A stretch of 64,000 nt of DNA, taken from assembly GCA_900175165.2 (NCBI GenBank), contig FWWN02000704.1, positions 124,001 through 188,000 on the forward strand. Direction: 5' to 3'. Below, in pieces: positions 25,285-25,964 of this stretch. The DNA comes from Rhizomucor pusillus (Eukaryota; Mucoromycota; Mucoromycetes; Mucorales; Lichtheimiaceae). Every line of letters begins with the position of its first letter. The stretch's first letter is position 1. A program made the translations under genes and the position numbers. The notes below the pieces were generated by a model, which saw nothing but the letters and a program-made list of their open reading frames with translations, did not search any database and was not told where the DNA came from.

Positions 25285-25964
25285 TTACTTGCGAGCAGCA
25301 GCCTATAAATAAGGTGATCAGGTGAGTTAAACTATTCATAGCTACATCTTCAATGCCCTTCGATCCTTATGTATACATACACGCTTGTTGGGGGCGACCT
25401 TGACAGCGCTAGCCTTAGCGGCTTGGCGAGCAGCAGCGCGAGCGGCAGGAGTCTCTTCACGCTTGGCGCGAATGGCATCCCAGGACAAACCGGCAATGGC
25501 ACGTTCGTGCTTAACGGTGCGGCGGCTGCGCTTCTTGGCAACTTCCTCAGTGACACCCTTCTTGTTGAGACGACGGTAGATCTGGGTCCATCGGATCTTG
25601 CGGGGGTTAAGGCGCTGAAGGAAGAGCGATTCGGCCTTGCCGTTGATGAAGCGGAAGGTCTATCGAAAGCGTCTAAGTCATTCCATGCAAAACGTCAAAA
25701 TATTAAATGCGCATTTCGAAACTTACTCTACGCAATTCAGATTAGTAATTAACGTTTCCAACACACAACCTCCCAGAGAATTTGTAGTTACCTGCTGTCG
25801 CTGCGGACGAAGACCTTGCCCTTGGCAGGATAAATCTTGTAGCCGGAAAATGAGCAGATCTCGAGCCTACAAAAGTGTATCCGATTTAATCGATGTTCAT
25901 CCATCCATTTGCGTATCTGTGCCATCCATCGTCATGGATATGCTACTAGCTCAACATACTTCAT
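25285..25964 (-). CDS. RPL24: 60S ribosomal protein eL24, with a 1-nt exon
   Basis: Ribosomal protein eL24 of the large subunit, 125 residues. Exons: 25964-25960 (ATG AA, only 5 coding nt), 25866-25792, 25727 (a single A), 25659-25381, 25302-25285. Seen: [21 protein letters not shown], then [56 protein letters not shown] and a basic Ala/Lys tail ending AAARK. Exon 2 ends in phase 2 (AG) while exon 4 begins in phase 0 with an in-frame TAG just before it, so one extra base is required. The site GCGTAG|A|GTAAGT supplies it and produces Arg at the position where yeast eL24 has Lys (GDSK-IFRF). The total of 378 nt is exactly 126 codons. Confidence 0.92.
25727..25727 (-). other. RPL24: Putative one-nucleotide micro-exon of eL24
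   Basis: Flanked by a 64-nt intron (25791-25728: GTAACT donor, perfect TTACTAATC branch site, GCGTAG acceptor) and a 67-nt intron (25726-25660: GTAAGT donor, CGATAG acceptor). Both introns have the length normal for this window. No alternative donor or acceptor pair that I could find keeps the eL24 frame. Confidence 0.75.

Follow-up and report, generated by a model that had tools for sequence, protein, structure and literature searches.

How does the gene for ribosomal protein eL24 in Rhizomucor pusillus yield an uninterrupted protein, when the two exons that carry its conserved parts are one base short of a common reading frame? An earlier note on this DNA had proposed that a single A, lying between two introns, is spliced in as an exon of its own. 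Judged by reading frame, protein spacing and splice signals, together with another assembly and the gene models of relatives, this is the best reading of the locus: a constitutive one-nucleotide exon at position 25727 with two successively removed introns, an arrangement most likely produced by the gain of a phase-2 intron, is very probably the correct explanation.

The eL24 gene and its reading frame

The gene lies on the minus strand, from 25964 to 25285 of the window (the whole 64,000-nucleotide stretch of DNA that was analysed). Both gene halves (exon 2 and exon 4) match PF01246 above cut-off, so that the domain is covered over its length, and the product has 92% identity to the R. pusillus eL24 protein P0001 at 100% query coverage, a full-length similarity. 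It is the sole eL24 copy found in the genome (24,452,634 bases, 353 contigs). PF01246 was found there in just one further gene, on contig C349, which is RLP24 by its best solved-structure matches.

All parts of the gene are on the minus strand. The coding part of exon 1 (25960–25964, ATGAA) supplies the MK start and is followed by a GTATGT donor; intron 1 (25867–25959, 93 nt) runs from GTATGT to TTTGTAG. Exon 2 (25792–25866, 75 nt) encodes 24 residues and ends in phase 2 with AG. Intron 2 (25728–25791, 64 nt, GTAACT...GCGTAG) is followed by the putative exon 3, the A at 25727, which would form the third base of the Arg codon AGA, as frame, spacing and the relatives' models indicate. Intron 3 (25660–25726, 67 nt, GTAAGT...CGATAG) leads to exon 4 (25381–25659, 279 nt), which begins in phase 0 with TFRFINGK. 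Intron 4 (25303–25380, 78 nt, GTATGT...TTATAG) and exon 5 (25285–25302), which encodes AAARK and the stop codon exactly as at the end of R. pusillus model P0011, complete the gene. The coding sequence sums to 378 nt including the stop codon, the figure that the earlier note had given, and encodes 125 residues. The first coding exon is just 5 nt long, and the eL24 models of several relatives have an odd start ahead of LEICSF; short first exons therefore seem to be misread as well.

What the earlier note had said of the junction itself is borne out by the sequence. Exon 2 ends GAC AGC AG|GTAACT and exon 4 begins TAG|ACC TTC, phase 2 meeting phase 0, and a direct join is one base short. The A lies in the context GCGTAG|A|GTAAGT, one base flanked by AG and GT between two canonical GT–AG introns of 64 and 67 nt, and the frame and the conserved protein spacing need it. 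The spliced junction would be CGACAGCAG-A-ACCTTCCGC, and the protein would read ...SDS-R-TFRF... with its Arg codon split AG|A. At this junction the eL24 spacing is gap-free in 4 of the 4 solved-structure alignments displayed.

Splice solutions, splice signals and chance

We enumerated the splice solutions with GT or GC donors, AG acceptors and introns no shorter than 40 nt; the product had to contain SGYKIYP and a 12-residue stretch. Among 71 single introns, three keep the frame, each at the cost of 6, 8 or 12 conserved residues and with GTCCGC, GTCTTC or GCCAAG as donor. Two-intron combinations with a middle exon of up to 90 nt keep the frame in 16 of 218 cases; the exact spacing (SDSR-TFRF) is preserved only with the A at 25727, and this is the sole such solution among the enumerated one- and two-intron solutions. 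The earlier statement that no other donor/acceptor pair restores the frame was thus too strong. Longer middle exons, GC donors and single introns were all rejected by the enumeration. Stwintrons, the nested spliceosomal twin introns of fungi, resemble the eL24 arrangement in the parts of the published accounts available to us, in that the introns adjoin and leave successively, but in a stwintron one intron interrupts the splice signal of the other, and 0 of 421 nested pairs at the eL24 junction give a full-length product.

Intron 2 has the branch site TACTAAT that had been noted before (25741–25747), with the branch A 14 nt before the 3′ end. The donor of intron 3 is a consensus donor, as also claimed; to this we add that a consensus branch site is absent from that intron. 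Its branch candidates, TTAAT, TTGAC and ATGAC, lie 43, 35 and 18 nt from the 3′ end, and our tentative choice is the weak ATGAC (25677–25681). Directly behind it stands a decoy acceptor, TTAG (25673–25676), which on our reading of the sequence would, if used, lead into an in-frame TAG; it is probably too close to ATGAC to be used. The missing consensus branch site and the decoy both count against the one-nucleotide exon. The 3′ splice site of intron 2 overlaps the U1 site of intron 3, and the spliceosome would therefore take out the two as ordinary short introns, one after the other. AG ends exon 2 and intron 2 alike, so that the second donor has the context AGA|GTAAGT whether or not intron 2 is still present, and the introns could leave in either order.

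The two introns are also of ordinary size. A rough de novo set of 68 introns, for which the donor was forced to GT[AG][ACT]G and a branch motif was demanded (from 200 kb plus the 64-kb window; only the lengths were used), has a median of 68.5 nt with 23 of the 68 in the 60–69 class. Lengths of 64 and 67 nt are usual for the genome, whereas a single 132-nt intron would fall in the tail. Our splice model stayed weak, the other intron sets comprising 35 introns and a noisy 188 with the donor unforced.

How often such a solution arises by chance was measured on both strands of 264 kb from this genome. Among 1746 other 132-base GT...AG stretches, a one-nucleotide-exon solution with donor GTRNG and branch YTRAY occurs once, with GTRNGT and CTRAY not at all, and with any GT seven times; for 131-base stretches, in a separate run, the same three criteria gave 0, 0 and 7 of 1709. 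Searched genome-wide on both strands, CTAAYN{5,25}YAGNGTAAGT occurs at 8 places and its reversed control at 14; for the CTGAY version (CTGAYN{5,25}YAGNGTAAGT) the figures are 10 and 21. The motif, with fewer places than its reversed controls, is thus not enriched in the genome, a point against the one-nucleotide exon. Rare as it is, one of its copies stands where the frame needs it. None of the seven other CTAAY places was taken as a further one-base exon, judged by translation only.

When the GT–AG rule is dropped, five single-intron boundaries give the eL24 spacing, and two of them, GT...TA and TA...AG, make up the one serious rival: a non-canonical intron of 131 nt that leaves a G in place, whereby the Arg codon becomes AGG and the protein is unchanged. 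Both boundaries reproduce the spacing exactly. Neither choice offers a GT–AG pair, however; TAG|A|GTAAGT with TACTAAT upstream would have to be an accident of the kind seen in 1 of 1746 stretches, and the R-V inserts that models of six other species carry at the same place (see below) would be left without a cause. We regard such an intron as very unlikely.

eL24 models of relatives and a second R. pusillus assembly

An expression describing the normal spacing was applied to public eL24 protein models, taken from the best 120 of 333, the best 120 of 247 and the best 120 of 766 matches. As each search is represented by its best 120 matches, distant fungi with badly broken models may be too few in the set. 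Among the matches listed, the junction is broken in 43 of 62 proteins of Mucorales and 6 of 6 of Umbelopsis, versus 3 of 127 others; all 16 models of Mortierellaceae among them are normal. Proteins were assigned to groups manually, by species name and general taxonomy, with lineages looked up for Rhizomucor pusillus, Umbelopsis and Mortierella. The expression had first flagged 6 of the 127 others, of which P0180, P0184 and P0191 were dropped (they have SYRL at normal spacing only) and P0179, P0181 and P0186 retained as real breaks. Fisher's test gives P = 1.4e-26 with 3/127 and 1.2e-23 with 6/127; the proteins counted are clusters, some of which share a species, and they are not independent of one another. 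Neither group includes three unnamed JGI proteins, of which P0032 and P0034 are normal and P0173 is broken. P0095, a metagenome protein of 94% identity that we put with the Mucorales, is without the junction altogether, and the count excluding it is 42 of 61. Scans for relatives found none in viral contigs (query P0001) and none in prokaryote genome contigs (query P0008). The three breaks retained near the junction outside Mucorales and Umbelopsis belong to Thamnocephalis (P0179), Saitozyma (P0181) and Ustilago (P0186); in P0179 and P0181 the block before the junction is missing, as one would see with an intron at that position.

The 49 broken models among the matches listed fail in several ways. 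Residues are inserted or replaced after DS in 12, VRxDSR is missing in 12, exon 2 is kept and joined to a wrong place in 7, and in 18 exon 2 is absent or out of frame, some of these maybe broken for other reasons. Eight broken models from six species read R-V after DS, followed by S, R or C. All eight fit AG, a purine, GTn and nGn, where 31% of codons would be expected to (binomial P 9e-5; 9e-4 counted by species), and these inserts would correspond to the missing base plus a donor whose fifth position is G. In P0001, the second R. pusillus copy (SDSR-VSA-TFRF), and in Lichtheimia ornata (RVSIW), the insert could be read as a purine and then GTNAGT, the order found in the window. Choanephora P0122 could be explained if all of a 70-nt intron 2 was retained, with what may be CTAAC 24 nt before the end of that intron, then YAG and a purine, and if the model passes directly from there to exon 4. 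Lichtheimia corymbifera P0036 likewise fits YAG and a purine ahead of exon 4. Against the one-nucleotide exon stand three inserts that do not fit simply, P0018 (RR), P0023 (SA) and P0029 (SANMC), and the 19 of 62 Mucorales models among the matches listed that are normally spaced; our guess is that the latter are transcript-based. The relatives are known from protein models alone, in which A and G are indistinguishable, and a one-base exon is not provable from them. Breaks at the same spot in so many related moulds nevertheless suggest an oddity that is old and has been overlooked, and the eL24 one-nucleotide exon is probably not a curiosity of one species.

These models also bear on the three frame-keeping single introns, which would place a donor inside exon 2 (at 25808, 25814 or 25826) and shorten the protein by 6, 8 or 12 residues. 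The loss of VRxDSR from 12 relatives' models among the matches listed is what such donors might produce. The donors in question are far from GTRNGT, though, and among the matches listed the residues are present in the 19 Mucorales models of normal spacing and in 124 of the 127 models outside Mucorales and Umbelopsis, as well as in the four solved-structure alignments displayed. Among the proteins of Cunninghamella, of Gongronella and of Phascolomyces there are near-identical ones that differ in whether they show the defect, the deletion included, which is expected if annotation alone differs. A donor inside exon 2 is exceedingly unlikely.

That a base was simply lost in sequencing or assembly, leaving one ordinary intron, is a natural suspicion in a draft of 353 contigs, and an indel error near 25660–25800 had been named as what would overturn the proposal. 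It is countered by R. pusillus model P0011, which comes from another assembly (its contig has 2,163,895 bp, against 535,162 bp for that of the window). The C-terminal part of P0011 equals exon 2 translated in frame 0, the wrong frame, and then exons 4 and 5, exactly. In that model the same outer donor and acceptor delimit one intron and exon 2 is read in the wrong frame; the base is therefore missing from the other assembly as well, and an assembly error is unlikely. The junction itself is free of runs of at least five equal bases; the closest such run, GGGGG at 25602, belongs to exon 4. The window contains a single run of N (15920–15951, 32 N), with no N within 9 kb of the junction, and the models of many relatives are broken there too. 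A lost base is barely credible. The other R. pusillus assembly has two eL24 proteins (P0001 and P0011) and this genome one, for which a strain difference, a collapsed copy or a gap may be listed as causes. A decayed eL24 copy with a frame defect could be imagined given the second copy, P0001, in that assembly, but the gene in the window is the sole eL24 found in its genome, all its other exons are intact and P0001 has an insert at the same junction, which makes the chance of decay negligible.

Origin of the arrangement and comparison with known one-base exons

The paralogue RLP24 has a single intron of 68 nt in phase 0 (L002:1609–1676, equal to C349:106511–106578, minus strand; acceptor GATAG|ACCTTCCG), whose boundary falls between the codons that match R and T of eL24. 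The position of intron 3 is thus common to the paralogues, and intron 2 looks added: the 64-nt intron appears to have been gained at AG|A, with a single base separating it from an older intron downstream. Aligned with the RLP24 intron, intron 3 scores 13.0, reached by 3 of 300 shuffles; intron 2 scores 10.0, nearly as high, so we give this likeness little weight. Because the Umbelopsis models are broken too and those of Mortierellaceae are normal, the phase-2 intron would most likely have been gained beside the older phase-0 intron, at the latest in the ancestor that Mucorales and Umbelopsidales share. We consider it somewhat probable that the one-nucleotide exon is ancestral to both orders, arose by this gain beside the intron position shared with RLP24 and has been kept since, presumably with conservation at the DNA level. 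On the same reading, public models of eL24 in the group mostly fail at the exon, and an obligatory stepwise splicing could be a control point for eL24 expression.

One-base exons had been held to be almost unknown apart from APC11 of Arabidopsis. The APC11 case is indeed published (Guo and Liu, 2015; PMC4674806), and so are others: VPS55 along with APC11 in land plants (PMC8831610), CYP621A of Fusarium (Nelson and Syed, 2026; PMC12940212) and the mitochondrial cox1 of placozoans (PMC5436844). The term 'single-nucleotide exon' is also used in the literature on fungal mitochondria, in the portions available to us. As far as the accessible text of these sources goes, Arabidopsis APC11 is like eL24 in having a single A between AG and GT that is essential for the frame and was overlooked by annotation, with introns proposed to leave successively; it differs in being a plant gene with a 422-nt region, established by cDNA and reporter constructs, whereas the eL24 exon is read from sequence (PMC4674806). 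The land-plant exons of APC11 and VPS55 are likewise kept across a large clade, absent from reference annotations and followed by strong GTRAGT donors, but they lie in other genes, in plants, and have RNA-seq and RT-PCR support (PMC8831610).

CYP621A, called the first fungal gene of its kind in the part of the account available to us, is closest: a fungal nuclear gene with a conserved motif, wrong public models and a region of 139 nt, compared with 132 nt in eL24 (PMC12940212). Unlike eL24 it is a P450 gene, described as rarely expressed, and is known within Fusarium (PMC12940212). Its base is a G with RNA reads in support, whereas that of eL24 is an A in a ribosomal protein gene with signs across two orders. 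Among the matches listed in literature searches on Mucorales or Mucoromycota and on RPL24/eL24 micro-exons there was nothing on this gene, and no one-base exon in a ribosomal protein gene. New here are the gene, the lineage and the depth that we infer; one-base exons as such are already known.

The eL24 models of many moulds, medically important genera included, are wrong at the same place, and gene finders must allow exons of one base. If confirmed, the eL24 exon would join that of Fusarium CYP621A as the second one-base exon in a fungal nuclear gene, and would be a case of intron gain right beside an old intron. It would provide a natural system for testing how splicing is ordered where two splice sites overlap, and would mean that the smallest possible exon has been retained in a core gene across two fungal orders.
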